DNA of 64,000 nucleotides from Methanoregula formicica SMSP (GTDB taxonomy: Archaea > Halobacteriota > Methanomicrobia > Methanomicrobiales > Methanospirillaceae): positions 868,001-932,000 of the forward strand of contig NC_019943.1 of NCBI RefSeq assembly GCF_000327485.1, read 5' to 3'. The position numbers were made by a program, and so were the translations under genes. Positions 3,113 through 25,661 of this stretch are shown here, piece after piece. Within the stretch, counting starts at the first letter, position 1. Each line of letters opens with the position of its first letter. The notes under the pieces are model-generated. The model was not told where the DNA came from. It made no database searches and saw only the letters and a list, made by a program, of their open reading frames with translations.

Positions 3113-5062
3113 TTACATCCCTATTCCTTTCACCACATCGGCGATCTGGTCTGCCTGCAGGTCTTCCAGTTTCAGGTATTTTGCCCCCATCTCCTGCGAC
3201 AGGGTCTGCGCGAGCCCGAAGGCGATATACCCCTTCTCCGAATCGATGACGAGCGAGGAGATCCCTGCATCCTTTATGCGGGCAGCAACCTCGTTTGCAT
3301 CGTCCAGCGGCGAACCGGATCCCCGGCTCACGTTCGCCTTCCCGTCAGAGATGAGGATAAGCCGGGGAATGGTGTGCCGGTTGATCATCTTCTCGCGCTG
3401 GAGCACTTCGAAGGCTTTCGAGAGCCCGTGGGCGAGCGGGGTCTTTCCCCCGACCGGGAGCTGCTGCATATACTTCCGGGCCAGCTCCACGCTGGATGTC
3501 GGGGGAAGGAGGACTTCAGCGGTCTTTCCCCGGAATACCACAAGGCCGACGCGGTCGCGTTTCTGGTAGGCATCGATGAGGAGCGAGAGGATGGCACCCT
3601 TGACCGCAGTCATCCGCTGCTGGGCGCCCATGCTCCCACTGGCATCGACGACGAAGAGGACGGTGTTCCCCATCTTCCGTTCGCGGACTTTTTCCCTCAA
3701 ATCCGAGGATTCGATTTTAACTGCAAGCGGCCCTTTCCTGTCTTTCTGGTGGGGGGCTGCCGCCCGGATCGTGGCGTCCAGCGCAATGTCCGGTCCTATG
3801 GTCTCGGGAATCCGGCTCCGGACATATTTCCCATCCCGGGACTCGGTCACGCTCCTCCTGCCGCTCCCATCCCGCTTGAATGAATCGATCCGCCGCGGCG
3901 TGGCCAGCGGCTTCTGGTTGACTTTGAACGGCTGCCCTTCGGCGAACTGTGTTGTCGTCGATCCGTCCGGTGTCGTGTTCTCCTTTGGCTTCTGGTTCTC
4001 GGGGTTCTGCTGCTGCTGTTCGGGCTGCTTCTTTTCCTGTTGGGACTTCTCTATGGACTGCTCCACCTTCTCCTTGTCCATCTGCTGGTCGGAGAATGGC
4101 TGCCTGCGCATGCGGTGGGAGAGGACGAGTTCGGCTGCCTCGCGGACATCCTCTTCCGTTACTTCTTTTCTGCCGTTGAATGCCGCGATGGTTGCGGCGG
4201 TCTTCAGCATCACGATATCTGCCCGGTGGCCGTCGACTGCCATGTCGATGCAGATCTGTGCGATCATGGCGAGCATCTCTTCGGATACAGAGACCTCCGG
4301 CAGCAGTTCTTTTGCTCGTACAATGCGCTCTCTCAGACCCTGTTCTTCCTCCTGCCATGATTCGATGAATGTGCCAGGAGCCTGTTCGTACGCCTGTCTC
4401 CGGCGCACGACCTCAACCCGCGTATCGGCATCATCAATCCCGACGATATCCACGCAGAGCCCGAAACGGTCGAGGAGCTGGGGCCGGAGTTCGCCCTCTT
4501 CCGGGTTCATCGTTCCGATCAGGATGAATTCCGAGGGATGGACATAGGAGACTCCTTCGCGCTCGATAATGTTCATCCCCATTGCAGCAGCGTCGAGGAG
4601 GACGTCCACGATATGATCGTTGAGGAGGTTCACTTCATCCACGTACAGGATGTTCCGGTGTGCTTTCGCCAGTACGCCGGGCTCGAACTTCCGCTCACCT
4701 TTCTTGAGGGCATACTCGATATCCAGACTGCCGACCACTTTATCTTCGGTGGCGCTGATCGGAAGTTCGATAACTTTCATGCGGGTGGTCTTCACCGTGA
4801 GTGTGGATACGCGTTCCCAGCATTCAGGACAAAGTCTTTTGGAATCTGATGGATCACACCCGCAAGTACACCCATCAACCACCTGCTTATCCGGGAGGAG
4901 GCGGGCAAGGGCCCGGGCTGCCGTGGATTTTGCGGTCCCCTTCTCTCCCTTGATCAGGACTCCCCCGATACGGGGGTTGATTGCATTCAGGAGCAGCGCC
5001 TTCTTCATCTGCTCCTGGCCGACGATGGCGGAGAACGGGTATATATCGTCGAAATGGTGCAT
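3113..5062 (-). CDS. ChlI-ChlD fusion chelatase subunit (AAA+ plus VWA)
   Basis: A 649-residue motor subunit of the Mg/Co-chelatase type. The N-terminal AAA+ domain (about 1-335) has Walker [10 protein letters not shown] at 39-47, a Walker [11 protein letters not shown] near 137 and a conserved [20 protein letters not shown] block. A Gln/Pro/Lys-rich linker runs about 340-385. The C-terminal von Willebrand A domain (about 463-649) has the MIDAS sequence DASGSMG. In the family these proteins drive metal insertion by a large CobN/ChlH subunit, and a CobN lies at 11197-15006. A cysteine cluster at about 64-85 (CTCGC...CPEC) may bind a metal. It lies downstream of a paralogue that shares almost the whole AAA+ part. 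The natural tetrapyrrole is unknown: methanogens make cobamides by the early-cobalt route, which does not need CobN. Confidence 0.9.
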
Positions 5063-5098
5063 TCGTGTACCTTGCTGGTTGAATTGCGAGACCGTCGC

Positions 5099-6172
5099 TC
5101 AGTGCCGGTGGGTGTGCTGCTGTGCGGCTGCGACGCCGGCTTTCTGCCCCTGGGTCTTCTGGATGGATTGCTCCATCTTTCCCGTATCCATCTTCTGTTC
5201 TGAGAACGGCCTCCGGCGCATGCGGTGAGAGAGCACCAGTGCTGCCGCTTCCCGGATATCTTCATCAATCACGGCGTTCCTGCCGTTATATGCTGCAATG
5301 GTTGCCGCGGTCTTCATCATCGTAATGTCGGCACGGTGACCGTCCACGGCCATGTCGATACAGATCTGGGCGATCATCTTCAGCATGTCATCGGATACAG
5401 AAACCTGCGGGAGCAGTGCCTGTGCCCGGACAATTTTTTCCCGCATTTCCTGTTCCTGCGATTCATATATGCGGGAGAATTCATCCGGTGTATCCTCGTA
5501 TTTCTGTCTCCTGCGAATCACTTCAACGCGTGTCTCTGCATCGTGGATCCCTTCGATATCCACGCAAAGCCCGAACCTGTCGAGGAGCTGGGGCCGGAGT
5601 TCTCCCTCCTCCGGGTTCATCGTCCCGATCAGGATGAACGCGGCCGGGTGGACGTAGGATACTCCTTCGCGCTCGATGAAGTTCATTCCCATGGCCGCGG
5701 CATCCAGCAGGACATCGACGATATGGTCGTTCAGGAGATTGACTTCATCCACGTACAGGATGTTCCGGTGCGCCTGGGCAAGGATACCGGGCTCGAACTT
5801 CTTCTCGCCTTTCTTCAGTGCGTGTTCGATATCCAGGCTTCCCACGACCTTGTCTTCCGTGGCACTGATAGGGAGTTCAACAACCCGCATAGGAGCTTTC
5901 GTGACCTTCAGGTTCCCGGCATGCGCCTGACAGTCAAGGCAGAGTCCTTTCGAGTCCGCAGGGTCACACCCGAAGATGCACCCGTCAACAACCTGCCGGT
6001 CCGGGAGGAGGCGGGCAAGGGCCCGGGCTGCCGTGGATTTTGCCGTCCCCTTCTCTCCCTTGATGAGGACGCCCCCGATACGGGGATTGATCGCATTGAG
6101 AAGGAGGGCTTTCTTCATCTGTTCCTGGCCGACGATGGCGGTGAACGGGTAGATGTCGTTGAAGTGGTGCAT
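5099..6172 (-). CDS. ChlI-type AAA+ chelatase ATPase
   Basis: A 357-residue AAA+ ATPase, a paralogue of the N-terminal half of the next gene and very similar to it from MHHF to the RPFS motif near 325. Walker A is GEKGTAKST at 39-47. It stops just inside the linker and ends in a short His-containing tail (AQQHTHRH), so it has no VWA domain, matching a stand-alone ChlI/BchI subunit. The first cysteine pair of the neighbour's cluster is altered here (CIFGC instead of CTCGC). First gene of the operon that continues to the BtuCD-type transporter, 36 bases from the next gene. Either a functional ChlI partner or a partial tandem duplicate; the intact ATPase motifs favour function. Confidence 0.88.
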
Positions 6173-15273: not shown

Positions 15274-15387
15274 ATGCAACCATCTTGGGCAATCATCGCA
15301 GGTCTGGCAATGATTCTATGCTGTTATCCTGCTCATGCTGCCGATTACTGGACGGGAGAAGATGTATGCGGGGGCGTAAATGACTGA
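15274..15387 (+). pseudogene. truncated 5' end of a secreted-protein gene
   Basis: An open frame of 37 codons gives MQPSWAIIAGLAMILCC then YPAHAADYWTGEDV, a textbook signal peptide with an A-H-A cleavage site followed by only a few mature residues. From about 15365 the sequence becomes homologous to the minus-strand cassette DNA (GGGGGCGTxAATGA is shared with 18721-18733) and a TGA follows at 15385. The best reading is the beginning of an exported-protein gene whose remainder was replaced when the cassette locus formed. It might instead be a tiny secreted peptide. Confidence 0.45.
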
Positions 15388-15863
15388 GCTTCACAAAAAT
15401 CACGACTTCTCCATTGACACTGTGATAATTTGTTGGCCAATCCTGAACCCAGATTGCCCCAGACCACACGAAGAATTGCATTGTGATGGCACATTGCATC
15501 CGTCCAGTCATTATTTGGACAACATCTAATTTGATCAACAGAGAAATCCACATAAGCTCCTGACAGCGAACATGGAACAATATGCCAGTATGCAAATGCC
15601 TCGCTTGTCCCGCCTACATTGCTTGCTATTACACGAATGGTATGATTTCCTGCAGTTGCACTATCCGCAGCAGGTGTTGAATAACTCGCAGAATGTCCAT
15701 AGGTCTGTTGAACTAAACCCCCATCATAGTAAAAACTCAATGTGGCTTGTATACCCCCATCCATTAAGGCAGTAAAAACTGAAGACTGATTCGAGCCTAC
15801 TCCCACACTTGCATGAGTTGGGGATAAATGTACGACCGGCGGACTCGGTGGCGGGCTTCCCAT
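15345..15863 (-). CDS. MGSPPPS Ig-like protein, cassette copy 3, 3'-truncated
   Basis: 172 residues, closely similar to the first about 155 residues of copy 1 (18357-19214): a proline-rich MGSPPPSPP start, an Ig/PKD-like beta domain (about 10-95) and a cysteine-rich block containing CCPNN, CHHN, QCQWRSRDFC. Homology stops at SFTPPH, where the frame runs into unrelated DNA and ends ten residues later, so the last third is lost. Start defined by ATG two bases after the TGA of the preceding P-loop tail, with GGAGGTGAA as ribosome binding site. No signal peptide is visible. Function unknown; the truncation makes activity doubtful. Confidence 0.6.
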   Translation of the reverse strand: MGSPPPSPPVVHLSPTHASVGVGSNQSSVFTALMDGGIQATLSFYYDGGLVQQTYGHSASYSTPAADSATAGNHTIRVIASNVGGTSEAFAYWHIVPCSLSGAYVDFSVDQIRCCPNNDWTDAMCHHNAILRVVWGNLGSGLANKLSQCQWRSRDFCEAQSFTPPHTSSPVQ

Positions 15864-15864
15864 T

Positions 15865-16236
15865 TCAGTTCACCTCCCGCCAGCCGTCGCGGATGAGATA
15901 CTGCGGGAGCACCCAGCCATCACAGAAAACCATGTTCCTGTTTCTCCAGACCGGCTCTTTCACGGAATATTCCTAGCGGACCAGATAATGGTCGTTATAT
16001 CCGATATAGGGCTCTCCTTCAGAAACATCGAAATATTTTACGGATTCTTTATCCAGGCTACTAATGACGGGTAGTCTCCCAAAAAAAGATTTCATTCTGT
16101 CTACTTCATTTATATCCAGTAGGATATCCAGTAGGGCCGATGGCTGGTAGCAGACAACCGTGCGGTTCTTAGGCTTACCGAGCAGTTTGAGGCCCACGTT
16201 AAGATATGTGCCAATGACTGCAAGATGGTTCATCAT
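15865..16236 (-). pseudogene. C-terminal remnant of the P-loop protein with in-frame amber stop
   Basis: The frame from 16236 encodes LAVIG...VVCYQPSALLDI...YNDHYLVR, aligning with residues from about 240 onward of the intact protein at 19216-20286 (LAVIG...VVCYQPTMYLDI...YNNRYWV). A TAG at 15973-15975 then interrupts. The same frame continues without a gap as EYSVKEPVW...WVLPQYLIRDGWREVN to the TGA at 15865, aligning residue for residue with the parent. About 240 N-terminal residues, including the nucleotide-binding motif, are absent, so this is a decayed copy. Confidence 0.8.
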
Positions 16237-16252
16237 AAGTATCTGAAAATTT

Positions 16253-16870
16253 TTAATACGATTGATTTGTCGAATTTGTAATTGTTGGTTTAAGTCGCCC
16301 CGCTAAAACAACTTCAACCCCCCATCCTTTGAGGGTTGTGTTGGAAAGCTTCTCGTTATCATGTGTTAAGGTGGAAACGTGCATGATAATTTTCTTGTCT
16401 GCGGGCATCATCTCAACTCCTGCAACATGCAAGTCAGAACTGTTTTCTATCCGTTTTAATTCAGCATATACTTCTTTTATTTCATCCTCAATTTCTGAGT
16501 CATGGATAACATATATCGTCCAGTTTCCAATTTTTTTATTTTGTAGCATATCAATTTCTTTTTTATCCTGGATATTATAGGCATAGATGATCAGTTGCTG
16601 GTTGGCTGTATCTACGCCCCATTTACTAATCCCGAATTTTCCGAAAAGAATGATGTCATCCATTTCATTTTTCAGTGAATCCGGAAGATCTTTCGTTACA
16701 TTTTTCCGTTCTTCCCATGTATCAGGGTAAATGCGTAATGACTGAGTCATAGTTTTCAATCCCTCTGTATTATTAGAATTCATTTCATTGAATAGCCACA
16801 ATCCGCTGCAAATAACGATTAAAATAATCACTATAGCAATGATGATTATCGTTGATCTTTTTATTGCCAT
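16253..16870 (-). CDS. membrane-anchored extracellular protein, cassette copy 2
   Basis: 205 residues: a short basic start (MAIKRS), one strongly hydrophobic helix (about 7-27), then a polar domain rich in Asn/Thr sequons, so probably an outside-facing anchored protein. It is distantly similar to the 173-residue protein at 17794-18315: both have xNWTIxxIxDxEI, a central V-G/A-x run, and a final W-x-(V/I)-x-x-V-x-A. It begins 6 bases after the MGSPPPS copy 2 stop, implying co-transcription. No family recognised. Confidence 0.65.
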   Translation of the reverse strand: MAIKRSTIIIIAIVIILIVICSGLWLFNEMNSNNTEGLKTMTQSLRIYPDTWEERKNVTKDLPDSLKNEMDDIILFGKFGISKWGVDTANQQLIIYAYNIQDKKEIDMLQNKKIGNWTIYVIHDSEIEDEIKEVYAELKRIENSSDLHVAGVEMMPADKKIIMHVSTLTHDNEKLSNTTLKGWGVEVVLAGRLKPTITNSTNQSY

Positions 16871-16876
16871 TACAAT

Positions 16877-17701
16877 TCACCAAAGTTCCACAGTTCCGTT
16901 ATGAAATATTCTGAAGGTTACAACAATCCGATCCTGATAGTGAATGCAATCAGTAAAGCCAATAACCTCTTTAATCTGAACTCTCGTGAAGTAACCCTCA
17001 TTTATTGGATATGGCATCTGATAATGTTCGGGCCATTCTCCTTTTTGGATGTTGAGATCGCCGTATTGAAAGAATCGCCAATTACTCCAATTTGTGTATC
17101 CTCCCGGTCCTCCAAGATATTCAGCGGTCATGTCATGGTTAACAGCTAAAGGATCAGGGAGATCCGGGGTCCATCTTCCCACGACGAATACATTCTTGTT
17201 TGCCGGCGAAGCAGGTAAAAAAGGTTGCTCTGAACAAGTTTCATTCCGTCTCCATTGGCAATTTGCTAATATGCCGCTGAATGGACCGCTATTTCCGGTA
17301 TATGCAAAATTTATTGCAGCATTTTGTGTACACGTAGCATTCTGCCATTCGCTTGCACTATTCGGGCGCCATTGACCAATCATCACATTCGGACCAAATG
17401 TAATAAAGGGGCCCAGAGGATTGCAGGAGTCCGGATCATACACATACCAATCGCAAATTGCTGAATTTGAACCCCCCTCATTCCACGCACGGGCTTCAAC
17501 AATGTGGTGCCCCAAGGTTCCTGCCCCGGCATTGTAAGATAAACTGGTTCCTGAACCGCTGATCACAAGGGTGCTATTAAAATAAATTGCAATTGAGCAG
17601 GAGATGTTTGTGGTTGCGGTAAATGTCCGTGAGGTTCCGACAGGATCATATCCCGGACAATTCATTGAAACGTTCGGCGGACTCGGCGGCGGGCTTCCCA
17701 T
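16877..17701 (-). CDS. MGSPPPS Ig-like protein, cassette copy 2
   Basis: 274 residues. It shares the MGSPPPSPP start and overall plan with copies 1 and 3 but has a different body: an Ig/PKD-like beta domain (about 10-95) ending in CDWYVYDP, then a domain with paired cysteines (CTQN, CQWRRNETCSEQPF) and a C-terminal part with SNWRFFQYGDLNI...YQMPYPINEG, which parallels EDYRFFQYTNSDI...LIQMPKGYK in copy 1. The start ATG lies two bases after the TGA of the retained P-loop tail, with GGAGGTGAA upstream. No signal peptide is evident despite many sequons and cysteines. Function unknown. Confidence 0.7.
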   Translation of the reverse strand: MGSPPPSPPNVSMNCPGYDPVGTSRTFTATTNISCSIAIYFNSTLVISGSGTSLSYNAGAGTLGHHIVEARAWNEGGSNSAICDWYVYDPDSCNPLGPFITFGPNVMIGQWRPNSASEWQNATCTQNAAINFAYTGNSGPFSGILANCQWRRNETCSEQPFLPASPANKNVFVVGRWTPDLPDPLAVNHDMTAEYLGGPGGYTNWSNWRFFQYGDLNIQKGEWPEHYQMPYPINEGYFTRVQIKEVIGFTDCIHYQDRIVVTFRIFHNGTVELW

Positions 17702-17702
17702 T

Positions 17703-17782
17703 TCAGTTCACCTCCAGGAACCCGTCACGGATGAGATACTGCGGGAGCACCCAGCCGGTACAGAACACCATATTGCCATCTT
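17703..17782 (-). pseudogene. last 24 codons of the P-loop gene, retained before copy 2
   Basis: Encodes DGNMVFCTGWVLPQYLIRDG...EVN and a TGA, the exact C-terminal end of the protein at 19216-20286. Upstream of this the homology breaks into the end of the anchored-protein gene. The block keeps the GGAGGTGAA site used by the following MGSPPPS start, which may be why it persists. Confidence 0.75.
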
Positions 17783-17793
17783 CAGAGTATTCT

Positions 17794-18315
17794 TCATGTT
17801 GCCCGTACAAAGACAATTCTCCAACTTTCGATCATAACCTCGGAACCGAGAATTTCCGGAGTGATATTGATTACTTTAACATACACCGTTTTTTTACAGG
17901 AATCGGGACTCCATGACCCTACGTGCTGGAGAGGGTGTTCATTTGCCCACTGTTTGACGTAGTTTTCATATGCATCCACTGCAGTGTTGTTGTAGATTTC
18001 AGGATCCTGAATCCATCTGATCGTCCAATTATCAATAACCTTATCCGGTTTCTTGCGTGTCAGAGGACTACAATTCAGATATATAGTCACCGTTTGTCCT
18101 GTTTCATTCGCTTCCCAGCTGCTGAAAAAAGAACGTTCATCAGACTGAGTGTTATTTATTTCTTTCATGATGCTCATGGGTAACGAGGTGTACGTTTTTT
18201 CGGGTTGCCCCATATTTTCGAATTGTGGCATTCTCAAGGAAAAAAAAGACGCAATTACAAGAATTACAATAGAAATTACAAGAAATATTGTTAAATTTTT
18301 ACCGTTGATATTCAA
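17794..18315 (-). CDS. membrane-anchored extracellular protein, cassette copy 1
   Basis: 173 residues with one N-terminal hydrophobic helix (about 9-27) and a sequon-rich polar domain (NNT, NET, NWT, NIT). Weak similarity to the 205-residue protein at 16253-16870 centres on xDNWTIRWIQDPEI and the closing WRIVFVRA. It lies 41 bases after MGSPPPS copy 1. Family and function unknown; its repeated position after each MGSPPPS gene implies a shared role at the cell surface. Confidence 0.62.
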   Translation of the reverse strand: MNINGKNLTIFLVISIVILVIASFFSLRMPQFENMGQPEKTYTSLPMSIMKEINNTQSDERSFFSSWEANETGQTVTIYLNCSPLTRKKPDKVIDNWTIRWIQDPEIYNNTAVDAYENYVKQWANEHPLQHVGSWSPDSCKKTVYVKVINITPEILGSEVMIESWRIVFVRAT

Positions 18316-18356
18316 TTATCATCATCCCTGGAGGACTATTCGGTATCTACCATTCC

Positions 18357-19214
18357 TCATTCGACATCACCGTTTTCATCGATTAGAAAAGAGGCAATTT
18401 CGGTATAATCAACAGGTCGATATTTAATTGAGTTTGTGTCACAATCAACATAAACATCGTTCAATTCTCTTATACTAACTTCCGTCTTCGTAACTTGATG
18501 AGTTACTGGGTCTTTATACCCTTTCGGCATTTGAATTAATTCATCATAGTTATCTTTCTCATTTATCTGAATATCAGAATTCGTATACTGGAAGAATCGA
18601 TAATCTTCGAAATTTTCTAAATCATCCTCGTTTTCTGCGACAACATCATGTTGCAAAAGATTACCATTTGCATCTTTCCCTACAATAGAGACAAGATAAA
18701 TTTTCTTATTGTACTCTTGTGGGGGCGTGAATGATTGGGAAGCGCAAAAATCACGACTTCTCCATTGGCACTGTGATAATTTACCGGCCAATCCCGAGCC
18801 CAGATTACCCCAGACTACACGAAGAATCGCATTGTGATGGCACATTGCACTCGTCCAGTTATTATTTGGACAGCATTTAATTTGATCAATGGAGAAATCC
18901 ACATAAGCTCCTGACGGGGAACAGGGAACAACATGCCAGTACGAAAATGCTTCGCTTGTCCCACCTGCGTTGCTTGCTACTACACGAATAGTATGATTTC
19001 CCGCAGCTGCGCTATCTGCAACAGGTGTTGAATAGGTCGCCGAATTTCCATAAGTCTGTTGAACTAAACTCCCGTCATAGTAAAAACTTAAAGTGGCTTG
19101 TATACCTCCATCAATCGTAGCAGTATATTCCGATGATTGACTCGAACCCACTCCAACACTTGCATGGGTGGGATATAATTGCACGATTGGCAGACTTGGC
19201 GGCGGGCTTCCCAT
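18357..19214 (-). CDS. MGSPPPS Ig-like protein, cassette copy 1
   Basis: 285 residues, the longest copy. After MGSPPPSLP comes an Ig/PKD-like beta domain (about 10-95; GNHTIRVVASNAGGTSEAFSYW) and a cysteine-rich segment (IKCCPNN, MCHHN, SQCQWRSRDFC), then a C-terminal region with RFFQYTNSDI and a closing VYVDCDTNSIKYRP. Its ATG follows the TGA of the intact P-loop gene by one base, and GGAGGTGAA lies inside that gene's last codons, so translation is coupled. The extracellular-type composition without a signal peptide is odd: either secretion is unconventional or the protein acts in the cytoplasm. Confidence 0.72.
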   Translation of the reverse strand: MGSPPPSLPIVQLYPTHASVGVGSSQSSEYTATIDGGIQATLSFYYDGSLVQQTYGNSATYSTPVADSAAAGNHTIRVVASNAGGTSEAFSYWHVVPCSPSGAYVDFSIDQIKCCPNNNWTSAMCHHNAILRVVWGNLGSGLAGKLSQCQWRSRDFCASQSFTPPQEYNKKIYLVSIVGKDANGNLLQHDVVAENEDDLENFEDYRFFQYTNSDIQINEKDNYDELIQMPKGYKDPVTHQVTKTEVSIRELNDVYVDCDTNSIKYRPVDYTEIASFLIDENGDVE

Positions 19215-19215
19215 A

Positions 19216-20286
19216 TCAGTTCACCTCCAGGAACCCGTCACGGATGAGATACTGCGGGAGCACCCAGCCGGTACAGAACACCATATTGCCATCTTTCCAT
19301 ACCGGCTCTTTACTGTCATACCAGTCGTAGACCCAGTACCGGTTGTTATACGCAGAGAACAGGGCACCATCCTCAACGAGAGGAGTCCCGACCGGGGCGT
19401 GTTTGATCCGGGAGAGCATTGCGGGGAAATCTGTCAGCAGCGAAGGGTTTGCCTTGCGCCGGGGAATGTCGAGATACATTGTCGGCTGGTAGCAGACAAC
19501 GGAACCATGATCGGAACGCATGGACAGTTTCATGGCATCCGATCCGGCAGCACCGATTACGGCCAGATCATATTGCTTCCTGCGTAACGCATCCATGAAT
19601 CCTGCAAAATCAAAGCGGAACCACTTGAGATTTGGATAGATATCCCAGTACTCCGCAGGGAACGATCCGACTGCGATGACACGTTTCTTCCGGTCTTTTG
19701 GCAGTTTCATTCGCGGAGTGACTTCTTCCCTTGTTAACCGCTCCGGGTTGTAAAACTGTTTTGTTGTATCAATACAGGGACCATCGACCGGACCGGATGT
19801 TTTTGTCAGTACTCTTATTACATTCCTCGCGTGGATCCGGTTCCAGTGCCACATGGGATCGATTTTCGTAATTTCTGGTGAGTCCCAGCACCGGTCCCTG
19901 ATCTCTGTCATGTGATTAGCAACATGACGCTTCCAGTCTGCCGAAAATTCATTCGCGACTATCTCGTTAATATTGCTGAACAGGTCGATATAAGCTGCAG
20001 CGCTTGCATGTATTCCATAGGTGATTTCCAAGGTAAATGCATCATATCCCTCCGGGAGCCATTGCTCGAACTGTTCCCTGCTTTTCGTGGCTTCAAGAGG
20101 GATGGAATAATGATTACAGTTATCAGACAGGTACCGGTGGACATCGTATTTCCCTTTGATAGCCTGCAGACATGCAACGCGTTTACCTTCGCTCTTCAAC
20201 ATTTTTTCAAGAAGGATGGCGGTTGTGGTTTTCCCCTGGTTCGGAATTGAGGCGATGACATAGAGATCGGCCATTCTATCACTCAT
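19216..20286 (-). CDS. P-loop NTPase, possibly CobB/ParA-like, unknown function
   Basis: 356 residues. The N terminus YVIASIPNQGKTTTAILLEKML is a deviant Walker A (SIPNQGKT, residues 13-20, with Ser for the first Gly), followed by helix, strand and a Cys-containing loop as in dethiobiotin-synthetase/CobB-like NTPases. The middle has MWHWNRIHARNVIRVL. The C-terminal half (VIAVGSFPAEYW...DLAVIGAAGSDAMKLSM...VVCYQPTMYLDI) looks like a second Rossmann-type domain. A minus-strand TATA-like TTTTATAC (20316-20323) sits 30 bases upstream, so the transcript is probably leaderless; ATG at codon 5 is an alternative start. It heads the cassette operon and is the only intact copy. Confidence 0.7.
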   Translation of the reverse strand: MSDRMADLYVIASIPNQGKTTTAILLEKMLKSEGKRVACLQAIKGKYDVHRYLSDNCNHYSIPLEATKSREQFEQWLPEGYDAFTLEITYGIHASAAAYIDLFSNINEIVANEFSADWKRHVANHMTEIRDRCWDSPEITKIDPMWHWNRIHARNVIRVLTKTSGPVDGPCIDTTKQFYNPERLTREEVTPRMKLPKDRKKRVIAVGSFPAEYWDIYPNLKWFRFDFAGFMDALRRKQYDLAVIGAAGSDAMKLSMRSDHGSVVCYQPTMYLDIPRRKANPSLLTDFPAMLSRIKHAPVGTPLVEDGALFSAYNNRYWVYDWYDSKEPVWKDGNMVFCTGWVLPQYLIRDGFLEVN

Positions 20287-21194: not shown

Positions 21195-22274
21195 TCATAA
21201 TCTCGGATAAAAGGCATCCCTGGCATCATATTCTCTCAGGAATTCCATTTTATATTCGTTGAGAATGTCATTCGGTGAGATATCACGGAAAAGATCCGGA
21301 TACAATGCCTTGGCGACGTAAACAAGTCCAGCTGCTGCCCGGGGACTTGCAACCATATCCCAATGCAGAACATAAACCCTGTTATCCTGAACCGCACGAA
21401 CTTCGGACAGGCCCGGCCGGTTCATGATCTCTTCATGGACGGCAGTCAGATTCATGTCATATGTAACAATTTTTATAATGACATCCGGATTCTGATTAAT
21501 TACCCATTCCGGACTTACTGTTGCTGATGACTGAGTGATATTTTCTGCAATATTTCTGGCATGAACGATTGTGAGTAAATCATTTACAAAGGTATCCGGT
21601 GTTGATAACGTATAATCATACCACGATTCAAAATAGACTCTGGGCCCGGGCTGATGGTTATCAGAAATATTTGCCAACCTGCTTTTCACAAGGGAGAGAT
21701 ATCTTTCTGAAAACTGTGCATATTTTTCTGCCCGTTCTTCATGACCGGTTATCCTGCTAAGTTTTCTGGTATCATTTGCAAGATCCTGGATATTATAGCA
21801 GTTGAGATAAAGAACTGTAATATTTGCTGCAACAACTTTATTGATGGACTGCGGGGGAGATCCCGGTTTACCGGCTGAAATCAACAGATCCGGATGAAGA
21901 GTAATAATTTTCTCCACATCTGGTGTCCAATAATTCCCGACACTTACCGCATTCGGGGCTTGATTCATAATAAAACTCTCATTTACAAACGATTGCGAAA
22001 CGCCAATTATTTGATCGCCTGCTCCAATAGCAGCTAATATCTCTGCTGCCTGCTCATTGAAACAGATAATCCGTCGGGCAGGCTGCGACAGGGATATGGT
22101 GTTTCCATAGTAATCCGTAACTGAAATATTTGTGGAATTGGTAGTATCTGTCGTTGTAGATGCAACTGTTGGAGATAATGATGAACAACCCGTTATCAGG
22201 ATAAATAGCAGTAACAAACTCCCGAGAGCACAGAGAAAAACCATCGGTAAATGCCATTTCTCTTTTTCAGTCAT
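21195..22274 (-). CDS. metal-chelate binding lipoprotein, tandem copy 4 (B type)
   Basis: 359-residue binding protein of the BtuF/FepB family with lipobox LILITGCSS near residue 30 and family blocks RRIICFNEQAAEILAAIGAGDQIIG, VEKIITLHPDLLIS and SPEWVINQNPDVIIKIV. Its YFESWYDYT motif groups it with the copy at 23419 rather than with its nearer neighbour at 22271. Overlaps that neighbour by 4 bases (ATGA). No permease or ATPase gene adjoins any of the four, so they may feed the BtuCD pair at 1.1-3.1 kb or another complex. Confidence 0.88.
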   Translation of the reverse strand: MTEKEKWHLPMVFLCALGSLLLLFILITGCSSLSPTVASTTTDTTNSTNISVTDYYGNTISLSQPARRIICFNEQAAEILAAIGAGDQIIGVSQSFVNESFIMNQAPNAVSVGNYWTPDVEKIITLHPDLLISAGKPGSPPQSINKVVAANITVLYLNCYNIQDLANDTRKLSRITGHEERAEKYAQFSERYLSLVKSRLANISDNHQPGPRVYFESWYDYTLSTPDTFVNDLLTIVHARNIAENITQSSATVSPEWVINQNPDVIIKIVTYDMNLTAVHEEIMNRPGLSEVRAVQDNRVYVLHWDMVASPRAAAGLVYVAKALYPDLFRDISPNDILNEYKMEFLREYDARDAFYPRL

Positions 22275-23416
22275 ACGCTATTCTCCAGTACGGTCGGTTT
22301 CTGTGCTACAGTGATTGTGGGATACTGCAATACACCGGACAATGACGGATAAAATGCGGTTTCTGTATCGGAGTCCGGTAAAAACTCCTGAGCATATTCG
22401 TGAAGTATGGCTTCTGGATCAATATCGGCAAATCTGTCAGGGTAGATTGCCTTTGCAATATACAGGGCCCCGATAACTTCGCGAGGACCGGACAATATTG
22501 TACCTGAAACACAATAGATCCTCTGGTTTTTTACAGCGTTTATTCGGGAAAAGCCCTGCCTGTTTTGCAGGTTATTTCTGATAGTTGCCATATTATTCCC
22601 GCTGGACACCATCCGGATAATGATATCCGGGTTCTGATCGATCACCCATTCCGGACTTACGACAGCATTCTGCTGATAGATGGATCCGGCTACATTTCTG
22701 GCATGGACCAGATTCAGGATATAATCTCCGGAACTACCGTTGGTGATGGCCATGTAATCGACGATCTGTTCAGAATAAATTTTAGGACTATCAGCGGGAC
22801 TGATATTCTTGACCCGATCTTTAATTAATGAGAGATATTTATCATTGAATGCATTCAGCCGATCCGCATCCACTTCATGTCCTGAAATCTTTCCAAGAAA
22901 TATTGTTTCATTATGGAGATTTCGGATGTCATATACTGTTTGGTAGACCACGGTCATATTATTGTTGAGGATCTTGTCGAGATTTCTCGGTTTGATGGTA
23001 GAATCACTATATGCGATAAACAGATCCGGTTTGAGCGTGATGAGTCTTTCAATATTTGGGGTATATGTATCGCCATAATTCTGTGCATTCGGTGTTTTGT
23101 TAATGAGATAATTTTTTTGCGATATCGTAGTATTGGAGAGCCCGATGATCCGGTCTCCTGCCCCTATGCTTGCAAGGATCTCCGCAGATCCACTGTTCTG
23201 GCAGACAATTCGCTCTGCAGGATGTGTGAGATCCACCGTATAGCCCAGACTGTCGGTTACGGTTAAGGAGGTGTTTCCTCCTGCCCCCACAACGGTATCA
23301 CCAGATTTTTCTGAATCCGTTATGCACCCGCATACTAGACAAATCAGGATTATACTGCCCATCATTATCACATGGGGGAATATACATTTCCCGCGGGGAA
23401 TGTATGATGAAGTCAT
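22271..23416 (-). CDS. metal-chelate binding lipoprotein, tandem copy 3 (A type)
   Basis: 381-residue binding protein. The lipobox is CLVCGC near residue 31. It has ERIVCQNSGSAEILASIGAGDRIIG, IERLITLKPDLFIAY and SPEWVIDQNPDIIIRMV. The motif YSEQIVDYMA...GSSGDYIL matches the copy at 24540 (YLEQLSDYMA...GSSGDYVL). The substrate pocket cannot be deduced; the family binds Fe-siderophores, haem or corrinoids. Third in a four-gene minus-strand operon, starting 2 bases after the stop of copy 2. Confidence 0.88.
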   Translation of the reverse strand: MTSSYIPRGKCIFPHVIMMGSIILICLVCGCITDSEKSGDTVVGAGGNTSLTVTDSLGYTVDLTHPAERIVCQNSGSAEILASIGAGDRIIGLSNTTISQKNYLINKTPNAQNYGDTYTPNIERLITLKPDLFIAYSDSTIKPRNLDKILNNNMTVVYQTVYDIRNLHNETIFLGKISGHEVDADRLNAFNDKYLSLIKDRVKNISPADSPKIYSEQIVDYMAITNGSSGDYILNLVHARNVAGSIYQQNAVVSPEWVIDQNPDIIIRMVSSGNNMATIRNNLQNRQGFSRINAVKNQRIYCVSGTILSGPREVIGALYIAKAIYPDRFADIDPEAILHEYAQEFLPDSDTETAFYPSLSGVLQYPTITVAQKPTVLENSV

Positions 23417-23418
23417 AA

Positions 23419-24540
23419 TTATACACCTGCCGGGGCGGTCGTGTTGTTTTTAATTATTACTTGGTTTTTCCCCAGACTTGGGTAAAATGTATCTTCTGAC
23501 CGGTACCCTGGCAGGAATTCATTCTCATAATCGTGTAAAATCTCGACCGGATCGATATCTGCAAACCGGTCCGGGTATAGCACTTTGGCAAGGTAGAGTG
23601 TGCCAACGGCTGACCGGGGACTGGTCAGCATGTCCGAATAGATAATATATACCCTACCATCCTGTACTGCCCGGATTCTCGATACACCGGGTCTGCTCAT
23701 CAATTTGTCGCGGATCTCGGTTGCATTATCCCCGGTGATTGCCAGTCTGAAGATCACATCCGGGTTCTGATCAATAATCCATTCCGGGCTCACATCCGCT
23801 TGGACGAGTGGAATATCTCCTGCAACATTATTTGCATTGAGTGTGGTAAGGATATCATGTTGTGGACTGTCACTTGCCAATGCGGTATAATCGGTCCACC
23901 GTTCGAAATAGAATCTGGGTTTTACAGCGCTGCCCTGACTGACATTTTCGAGTCGTTCCTGTGTTAAAGACATGTATTGCTCCGAGAAATGTGCTACGGA
24001 CTCTGATCTGGTTTCTGTTCCCGTAATTTTACCGAGCATGCGTGTTTCATTGGCCAAATCGCGGACATCATAGCATTTTACATACAGTACAGTAATATTT
24101 GCGGCAAGAATTTTATCGATATTCCCGGCTTTTGACTGTGAAATACCATAGGAAATTACAAGATCCGGATGAAGAGAAATGATCTGCTCAACATCCGGCA
24201 GCCACCAGTCACCGACACTGGTGGCATTCGGCATCCGGCTCATCAGATACGCATCTTTGGAGGTATATTCAGAAACCCCGACAATTTTATCTCCTGCTCC
24301 GATACTAACCAGCGTCTCCGCAGCAGTTCCCGGAAGACATATGATGCGCTTAACGGTATGTGGGAATGAGACCGTATTACCATAAGTGTCTGTGACAGTT
24401 ATGGATGAATCGTTGCCGATTGTGTGAGTATCCGTCGAGCTTCCTGATGAAGAGATACACCCGGATAAGATTATTGCAAGAAACATTGTAAAAAAGAGGA
24501 AAACAGCGCAATATGATCCAAGTAACCGGGGTTCAGACAT
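23419..24540 (-). CDS. metal-chelate binding lipoprotein, tandem copy 2 (B type)
   Basis: 373 residues. Signal peptide with lipobox ILSGC near residue 28, then KRIICLPGTAAETLVSIGAGDKIVG, VEQIISLHPDLVISYG and SPEWIIDQNPDVIFRLA. The YFERWTDYT motif pairs it with the copy at 21195. Its ATG overlaps the stop of copy 1 (TAATG), with GGGAGG a few bases upstream, so translation is coupled. Confidence 0.88.
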   Translation of the reverse strand: MSEPRLLGSYCAVFLFFTMFLAIILSGCISSSGSSTDTHTIGNDSSITVTDTYGNTVSFPHTVKRIICLPGTAAETLVSIGAGDKIVGVSEYTSKDAYLMSRMPNATSVGDWWLPDVEQIISLHPDLVISYGISQSKAGNIDKILAANITVLYVKCYDVRDLANETRMLGKITGTETRSESVAHFSEQYMSLTQERLENVSQGSAVKPRFYFERWTDYTALASDSPQHDILTTLNANNVAGDIPLVQADVSPEWIIDQNPDVIFRLAITGDNATEIRDKLMSRPGVSRIRAVQDGRVYIIYSDMLTSPRSAVGTLYLAKVLYPDRFADIDPVEILHDYENEFLPGYRSEDTFYPSLGKNQVIIKNNTTAPAGV

Positions 24541-25661
24541 TACATGCCTCCCGATTGGTTCCAGTTACCTGAAGTCTTTGGCAACTGAGGATCGAATGAA
24601 CCCGGAAGGTCCGATCCCGTCATGAACGTATTTGCATATTCTTTTAGTACTTCTTCCGGATCAATATCCGTGAACCGGTCTGGATGCACTGCCTTTGCGA
24701 TATAGAGGATTCCAATGATCTCCCGTGCACCTGAGAGCATGCTGCTGGAAAAGGCATAGACTCGCTGATCCTGGACCGCCCGTATCCGGGAAAAACCTGC
24801 CCGGTTAATGATGTCCTGCCTGACAGCAGAGACACCTTTCCCTCGTGTTACCTGTTTGATGATGATGTCGGGGTTCTGTTCGATCACCCATTCAGGAGAA
24901 ACTATTGCATATGGTACAGAGATATTTCCGGCAATGTTTTGTGCATGGACATAACTGAGGACATAATCTCCAGAACTGCCCTGGTGGGTTGCCATGTAGT
25001 CGCTCAGTTGTTCCAGATACACCCGCGGGCTTTCCGACTGGCTGATATTCTCTGTCCGGCTTTCTATCAGCGACTGGTATTTCTCGGTAAAGTCAATTAA
25101 CCGTTCTGCATTTGCTTCCCTGCCAGTAATCTTCCCCAACATCCGGGTCTCGTTCGCGATATCCCGGATATCGTACACCTTGGTATAGATAATGGTGATA
25201 TTCGCGGCACGGATTTTATCGATATTTCCCGGAATTGATCCGCTGTCACCGTATGCAATAAACACATCCGGGTGCAGCGCAACGATCTTTTCCATATCGG
25301 GGCTCCTTATCTCCCCAATACTTTTTGCATGAGGTATCTGATTCATGAGGTACTGCTCTTTTAATGCAGTATCTGTTACTCCGACAATCTGATCAGTCGC
25401 CCCGATATCCACGAGGATTTCTGCTGCGAGACCGTTCTGGCAGATAATACGTTCCACGGGATGGTTGAACGTATGGGAAGTTCCTGAAGAGTCCGTTATG
25501 GTGATTGAAGTATCTCCTATGATGCTTTGTCGTTGTGAGAAAGAGGTTTTTTCGTCTGATGAGGAAGAACAACCTGATACAATACAACATATGAAGATCA
25601 GGATAACCGCAAGAGAATATCTCTGAATCTGTTTGAAGGTCCACCAGCTTTTTTGAGACAT
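24540..25661 (-). CDS. metal-chelate binding lipoprotein, tandem copy 1 (A type)
   Basis: 373 residues, first gene of the four-gene operon. Lipobox CCIVSGC near residue 30, then ERIICQNGLAAEILVDIGATDQIVG, MEKIVALHPDVFIAYG and SPEWVIEQNPDIIIKQV. The YLEQLSDYMA...GSSGDYVL motif makes it the closest relative of the copy at 22271. The promoter side carries a perfect 7-bp-arm palindrome at 25738-25759. Conserved C-terminal ILYIAKAVHPDRFTDIDPEEVLKEYA is shared by all four. Confidence 0.88.
   Translation of the reverse strand: MSQKSWWTFKQIQRYSLAVILIFICCIVSGCSSSSDEKTSFSQRQSIIGDTSITITDSSGTSHTFNHPVERIICQNGLAAEILVDIGATDQIVGVTDTALKEQYLMNQIPHAKSIGEIRSPDMEKIVALHPDVFIAYGDSGSIPGNIDKIRAANITIIYTKVYDIRDIANETRMLGKITGREANAERLIDFTEKYQSLIESRTENISQSESPRVYLEQLSDYMATHQGSSGDYVLSYVHAQNIAGNISVPYAIVSPEWVIEQNPDIIIKQVTRGKGVSAVRQDIINRAGFSRIRAVQDQRVYAFSSSMLSGAREIIGILYIAKAVHPDRFTDIDPEEVLKEYANTFMTGSDLPGSFDPQLPKTSGNWNQSGGM

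Follow-up and report, generated by a model that had tools for sequence, protein, structure and literature searches.

We have studied a group of genes from the archaeon Methanoregula formicica SMSP, whose genome is closed and has 2.82 Mb. They lie in a stretch of 64,000 nucleotides (nt) of contig NC_019943.1, positions 868,001–932,000 of the forward strand, which we will call the window; its own numbering is used throughout. On the minus strand, going from 20286 to 15345, we find a gene for a P-loop protein, a gene of the MGSPPPS type (copy 3), a partner gene, a short relic, copy 2, a second partner, a long relic and copy 1. An earlier note, made from the sequence alone, had described three gene types on this strand with only the first P-loop gene intact; both the coordinates and this description have been confirmed.

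Genes and junctions in the window

The features of the locus are the following (module type A is described in the next section):

19216–20286, minus strand: constant gene, an intact open reading frame of 356 amino acids (aa); P-loop nucleoside triphosphatase (NTPase) of the SIMIBI class, from its predicted structure
18357–19214, minus strand: MGSPPPS copy 3, 285 aa, with a proline-rich leader, one immunoglobulin-like (Ig-like) domain and a type A Cys/His module; it occupies the active position
17794–18315, minus strand: membrane-anchored partner of copy 3, 173 aa, TTG start; N-terminal hydrophobic segment and match to the partner-family profile
17706–17810, minus strand: P-loop tail relic of about 35 aa which precedes copy 2; 77% identical to the intact P-loop protein
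16877–17701, minus strand: MGSPPPS copy 2, 274 aa, an intact orphan cassette; Ig-like domain in residues 5–90, type A module in 100–274
16253–16870, minus strand: membrane-anchored partner of copy 2, 205 aa; match to the partner-family profile
15868–16236, minus strand: relic of a second, divergent P-loop gene, about 117 C-terminal aa with an internal stop; 45% identity, E-value 5.7e-21
15345–15863, minus strand: MGSPPPS copy 1, 172 aa, partnerless and cut short behind the Cys helix; a decayed sister of copy 3
19183–19295: junction block in the active position (113-nt repeat), with the last P-loop codons, the Shine-Dalgarno sequence GGAGGTG, the stop and the ATGGG start of copy 3
17670–17782: junction block preceding copy 2 (113-nt repeat)
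15832–15944: junction block preceding copy 1 (113-nt repeat), 84% identical to that of copy 2

The window has one intact unit (P-loop gene, copy 3 and partner), one complete orphan cassette (copy 2 and partner) and one decayed cassette (copy 1). The earlier note spoke of a decaying, three-fold set. Decay is found in copy 1, while copy 2 and its partner are complete; the set is not fully three-fold, since copy 1 stops behind the Cys helix and no partner follows it, which leaves the third cassette with no anchored gene. The similarities which the note reported are all present. Copies 1 and 3 have 87% identity over 300 nt and 83% in protein; their non-synonymous and synonymous divergence (dN 0.084, dS 0.60, dN/dS about 0.14) indicates that they diverged under purifying selection. 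Copy 2 has the same plan and the same module type with a diverged body, 34% identical to copy 3. The two partners are distant paralogues, 26% identical (E-value 2e-4), and both are found by one profile; in that of copy 3 there is a single N-terminal hydrophobic segment, with a Kyte-Doolittle value of 2.82. The note had recognised no family for any of the three protein types, and Pfam, NCBIfam and PADLOC name none of them. Assignment to a defence system was rejected, as the window proteins have no match in PADLOC.

The three copies of the 113-nt repeat have 84–96% identity. Each of them joins the 3' end of a P-loop gene to the start of an MGSPPPS gene, which lies within the repeat. When the intact unit is compared with the relic that precedes copy 2, identity is about 20–37% upstream, 60–100% over a block of about 100 nt and 23–40% in the body of the gene. 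The tail relic itself has about 90 nt which are 90–100% identical to the intact junction, with identity at chance level upstream of them. Copies 1 and 3 differ from copy 2 in that their likeness continues beyond the junction block. In the whole family GGAGGTG has a double use: it provides the codons for the terminal Leu-Glu-Val of the P-loop protein and the Shine-Dalgarno sequence of the following gene. Synonymous conservation is 0.83 in these last codons versus 0.44 in the body. We also considered that the whole P-loop tail might be conserved as DNA and rejected it: the blocks of the tail have 0.47–0.58 synonymous identity, close to the 0.44 of the body, and only the last codons, those of the Shine-Dalgarno sequence, are clearly higher.

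Conservation of the locus and exchange of modules

The constant gene has a well-defined predicted structure: its model has a predicted local distance difference test (pLDDT) value of 90.1 and a predicted template modelling (pTM) score of 0.89. A structure search matches residues 3–183 over about 150 residues to signal recognition particle (SRP) GTPases (Z 12.8), ParF (Z 10.9) and GPN (Z 11.1). By the predicted fold of this part it is a SIMIBI-class NTPase, like SRP54/FtsY, ParA, GPN and CobQ. It differs from them by an additional C-terminal half: residues 200–356 have no structural match, which is not evidence of a new fold. Its sequence similarity to CobQ and ParA is found only at the Walker A motif. 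The comparison of its profile with CobQ/BioD-type PF13500 aligns 33 columns only, with a probability of 44%, and Pfam CbiA gives an E-value of 0.22; since just the Walker A stretch is aligned, we do not assign the protein to the CobQ or ParA families. Solved structures searched by sequence gave nothing significant for the P-loop protein. The Walker A motif GK[ST] is GKT in the window; T is changed to I in two homologues, and GK is present in every aligned sequence that covers the motif. One homologue, from Methanolobus psychrotolerans (L089, 9878–10996), has a twin-arginine signal (TIGR01409, 22.2 bits, cut-off 16.7), a surprising feature for a protein that should be a cytoplasmic NTPase.

Homologues of the P-loop gene were searched for in a sample with one genome per species. 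They are present in 17 of the 232 genomes of the order Methanomicrobiales, in 5 of the 238 of the Methanosarcina class and in a few others of the phylum, Methanophagales among them. A scan of contigs with a single protein as query gave no matches; with an alignment as query it gave 17 loci. One contig with a P-loop homologue (L076) is filed under a Candidatus Marinimicrobia metagenome-assembled genome; its P-loop DNA is 87% identical to that of Methanoregula PtaU1.Bin051, and it is probably a misbinned methanogen contig.

The earlier note had proposed that the three gene types act together, a proposal against which homologues never adjacent to MGSPPPS-type genes would speak. The outcome was the opposite and supports the view that they form a system. 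In each of the 28 loci whose P-loop gene has an intact 3' end, from Methanomicrobiales, Methanosarcinales and Methanophagales, the gene directly downstream starts with MG or MCG (MG genes in what follows), with the only peculiarity of one decayed copy in which ATA replaces ATG. No more than about 10 nt separate the start of this gene from the end of the last P-loop codon that is conserved. The rest of the operon matches in part only.

The MG proteins have a common plan: first a short leader, then usually Ig-like domains (between zero and four of them) and finally the C-terminal module; at P-loop loci their size is about 130–600 aa. The modules belong to at least five unrelated types. The recurring ones, A to E, are found across genomes behind different leaders. 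Those of the window are of type A, which in 13 sequences has an invariant Cys, an Asn three residues later and an invariant His. In the model of copy 2 (pLDDT 81, pTM 0.64) the Cys opens helix 124–134 and the His opens strand 189–195. This pattern resembles that of papain-like and transglutaminase-like enzymes, and type A modules look like cysteine enzymes of this kind. When solved structures were searched by sequence, nothing significant was obtained for type A. A type A module is also found at the C-terminus of an 800-aa protein of the same genus (L144, 8019–10421), which begins with a hydrophobic segment at its N-terminus and also contains kelch- and PKD-like parts.

The exchange of modules is apparent in three pairs of loci. 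In one of them the P-loop proteins are 96% identical (Methanoculleus UBA208 and G088) and are followed by modules of type D and type E; two other pairs, with P-loop proteins 88% and 91% identical, likewise carry unrelated modules. In these pairs (96, 88 and 91%) the first 90 residues of the MG proteins are 67, 84 and 52% identical, while the last 150 residues have no meaningful similarity. The abrupt switch is located inside the MG gene, and the constant P-loop gene is separate.

Four loci, namely L061, L076, L077 and the window (with two), have orphan MG genes preceded by P-loop tail relics. Their junctions are 67–100% identical within a locus, with chance identity outside, and the displaced modules retain only the last 60–100 nt of the constant gene. 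L077 has as its orphan the cassette which occupies the first position in L076: 25 of 25 residues are identical, as is 91% of the DNA over 146 nt. Judged from the sequences, the locus type is shown to be a constant gene, an MG gene with a conserved start, a module that is exchanged wholesale and a partner matched to its type.

Partners, leaders and surroundings

Type A modules are followed downstream either by the anchored family of the window or by a PQQ propeller. Type B is paired mostly, not always, with TolB propellers; behind the other module types the next gene codes for TolB propellers, Yip1-like proteins or further membrane proteins. Type A and its anchored partner are also present together where there is no P-loop gene. 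In two proteins the His half of type A and the partner domain are found in this order on one chain, with the Cys half missing (L147, 7524–10013, minus strand; L146, 5928–6887, minus strand). PEGA-like repeats and a transglutaminase-like stretch are further parts of the L147 protein, whose gene has corrinoid-uptake-like genes nearby; a NikR-like gene lies close to that of L146. N-glycosylation sequons are 1.8–2.7 times as frequent in the partners as in shuffled sequences, versus 0.4–0.6 in the P-loop and radical S-adenosylmethionine (SAM) proteins. This excess in the partners and deficit in the P-loop protein suggest that the former are probably extracellular and the latter intracellular.

The radical SAM proteins belong to a subset of the loci. 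Close relatives of one radical SAM gene were found in 8 of 20 genomes, always at a P-loop locus; the genome of the window has none. Where a radical SAM gene is adjacent, in nine loci, the leader always contains one or more [WY]-x-[DNE] motifs; in one of these loci (L085) it is only WDE. Among the 19 loci without this gene 18 have no Trp in the leader; the exception (L134) has a Trp leader, and its P-loop gene is cut at the 5' end behind a transposase-like gene. Fisher's test of this association gives p 1.4e-6, but the loci share ancestry: on the P-loop tree the pattern needs two to three changes, so that the independent evidence for the link is modest. The radical SAM proteins score below the cut-off of every NCBIfam model listed. 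They match the viperin models of PADLOC, as expected from the common superfamily.

Characterised enzymes of the cyclophane-forming kind connect a Trp or Tyr with the Asp or Asn at position i+2 (PMC11002830). Leaders such as WSDWGDWMD, WGEWGDWSD and WAEYAD beside a radical SAM gene are like the targets of the radical SAM/SPASM maturases XncB, OscB, MscB and YxdB; the difference is that the putative target is here the start of a protein of 130–420 aa and not a short precursor peptide. The pattern suggests that the MG leader may be cross-linked by the adjacent enzyme. If true, peptide cross-linking would reach beyond small peptides to the starts of whole proteins.

Concerning the surroundings of the locus, the earlier note had proposed an accessory or mobile origin. 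The sparse distribution given above agrees with an accessory one. A mobile element was rejected: no integrase or transposase is seen at the locus, and it has no matches in plasmid, phage and viral-contig collections. Transposase- or integrase-type genes are found near a few of the relatives' loci only. No tRNA and no tandem repeats were found. The note had also contrasted AT-rich genes with GC-rich flanks. The locus genes have indeed 36–50% GC, compared with about 52–60% in the left flank; however the AT-rich stretch continues to about 28 kb, so low GC is not specific to them. Inside it, at 21195–25661 on the minus strand, there are four consecutive genes for BtuF/FepB-like substrate-binding lipoproteins (one was checked against NCBIfam). 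The isochorismatase-like gene which adjoins them has, at the cut-off used, no counterpart elsewhere in the genus among the 39 genomes searched. Further away, at 3113–6172, two tandem chelatase-type AAA genes have nearly alike N-termini, likely as a result of duplication.

Interpretation and comparison with known systems

We propose, with about even confidence, that this is a polymorphic locus with exchangeable cassettes, in which the SIMIBI-class NTPase serves the export or maturation of the MG proteins. New cassettes would enter through homologous recombination in the junction block and would push older ones downstream, as is the case for orphan Rhs tips. The P-loop protein would recognise the short MG leader and drive export or maturation; outside the cell the module may act on other cells or on matching surfaces, and the anchored partner, which is predicted to be glycosylated, would hold or neutralise it. 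The layout points to a role in antagonism or self-recognition, with the modules as putative effectors only. The MG proteins are probably exported; they are Ig-like, rich in Cys and contain little Lys and Arg. An adjacent ATP-binding cassette (ABC) transporter was rejected as the exporter, since an ATPase/permease pair is present in only two loci and an ATPase fragment in a third. In the two loci with the pair (L079 and L080, Methanosarcinales) it lies immediately upstream of the P-loop gene.

Several observations weigh against this proposal. In Pfam, NCBIfam and other family searches the modules showed no match to any known family of toxins or enzymes. The type A fold has no match in the structure search with copy 2, because the Ig-like domain, with matches of Z up to 12, filled it. 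No signal peptide is recognised in the MG proteins, and their sequons show no excess (1.0–1.2 relative to shuffled sequences), so their export is something we infer. It would be unusual for immunity proteins to be beta-propellers or Yip1-like. Recombination within a genome was not seen directly with one genome per species.

Other explanations should be weighed with the same data. The MG proteins could be variable surface proteins for adhesion, recognition or hiding from viruses, with C-termini that diversify, partners that anchor or scaffold them and nothing toxic. Ig-like stalks, propeller partners with an excess of sequons, the lack of any toxin domain found and a likeness to the VARTIG modules of Thermococcales, which have Ig domains (PMC8416519), make this possible, if somewhat doubtful: the pairing of module and partner type persists away from the P-loop gene, part of type A is fused to its partner and the Cys/His pattern is invariant, all of which suggest an enzyme with its inhibitor. 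Such a pair might serve nutrition or envelope upkeep, as an extracellular enzyme with a membrane-bound inhibitor or assembly factor, whose diversity mirrors that of its substrates. The invariant Cys, Asn and His of type A and the presence of the partner on the same chain in two proteins agree with this; we consider it improbable, since wholesale exchange with conserved junctions and orphan relics is typical of conflict loci and not of housekeeping. Plain tandem duplication followed by decay, with no cassette function, would account for the decayed state of copy 1 and of both P-loop relics, and may hold for copy 1 alone. For the family it is contradicted, and as a whole very improbable: tail relics in the same arrangement are present in three further loci, the copies diverged under purifying selection and the neighbourhood is conserved in 28 of 28 cases.

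The exchangeable-cassette proposal has also a bolder form, which we think unlikely: a novel route of protein export and maturation in methanogens, in which a SIMIBI NTPase reads a leader some 10 residues long and exports folded effectors with no signal peptide, the modules being swapped like toxin tips. The leader would then be either MGSPPPS-like or made of W-x-D repeats with bridges formed by a radical SAM enzyme dedicated to them.

The locus has a layout like that of the exchangeable toxin-and-antidote cassettes of bacteria, but its protein families are unrecognised by databases. Weapons and self-recognition systems of Archaea have been predicted and hardly tested. The loci described here, from methanogens and methane-oxidising archaea related to them, are of a defined type with a constant gene, pairs of module and partner, and a legible record of cassette exchange.

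In bacterial Rhs loci the orphan tips are displaced downstream and keep a short stretch homologous to the constant part, at which recombination can take place (PMC3967940). The loci studied here share several features with such polymorphic toxin/immunity systems: a constant upstream part with an abruptly variable, replaceable C-terminal module, a cognate partner directly downstream whose type follows that of the module, and downstream orphans with short homology to the constant part. They differ from Rhs in that the junction is a gene boundary and the constant part a separate NTPase gene; furthermore no known toxin domain was found and the partners are predicted to be extracellular. In the VARTIG loci of Thermococcales variable genes follow a gene for an Ig-domain protein whose C-terminus is hypervariable; these loci were described as similar to polymorphic toxins, with no counterpart in other Archaea according to their authors (PMC8416519). 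They are centred on a large upstream Ig-domain protein (arCOG07710), whereas here the constant gene codes for the P-loop protein and the MG proteins are smaller and have no recognised signal peptide. As archaeal Ig-domain proteins with a variable C-terminus, they are the nearest archaeal parallel to the loci described here.

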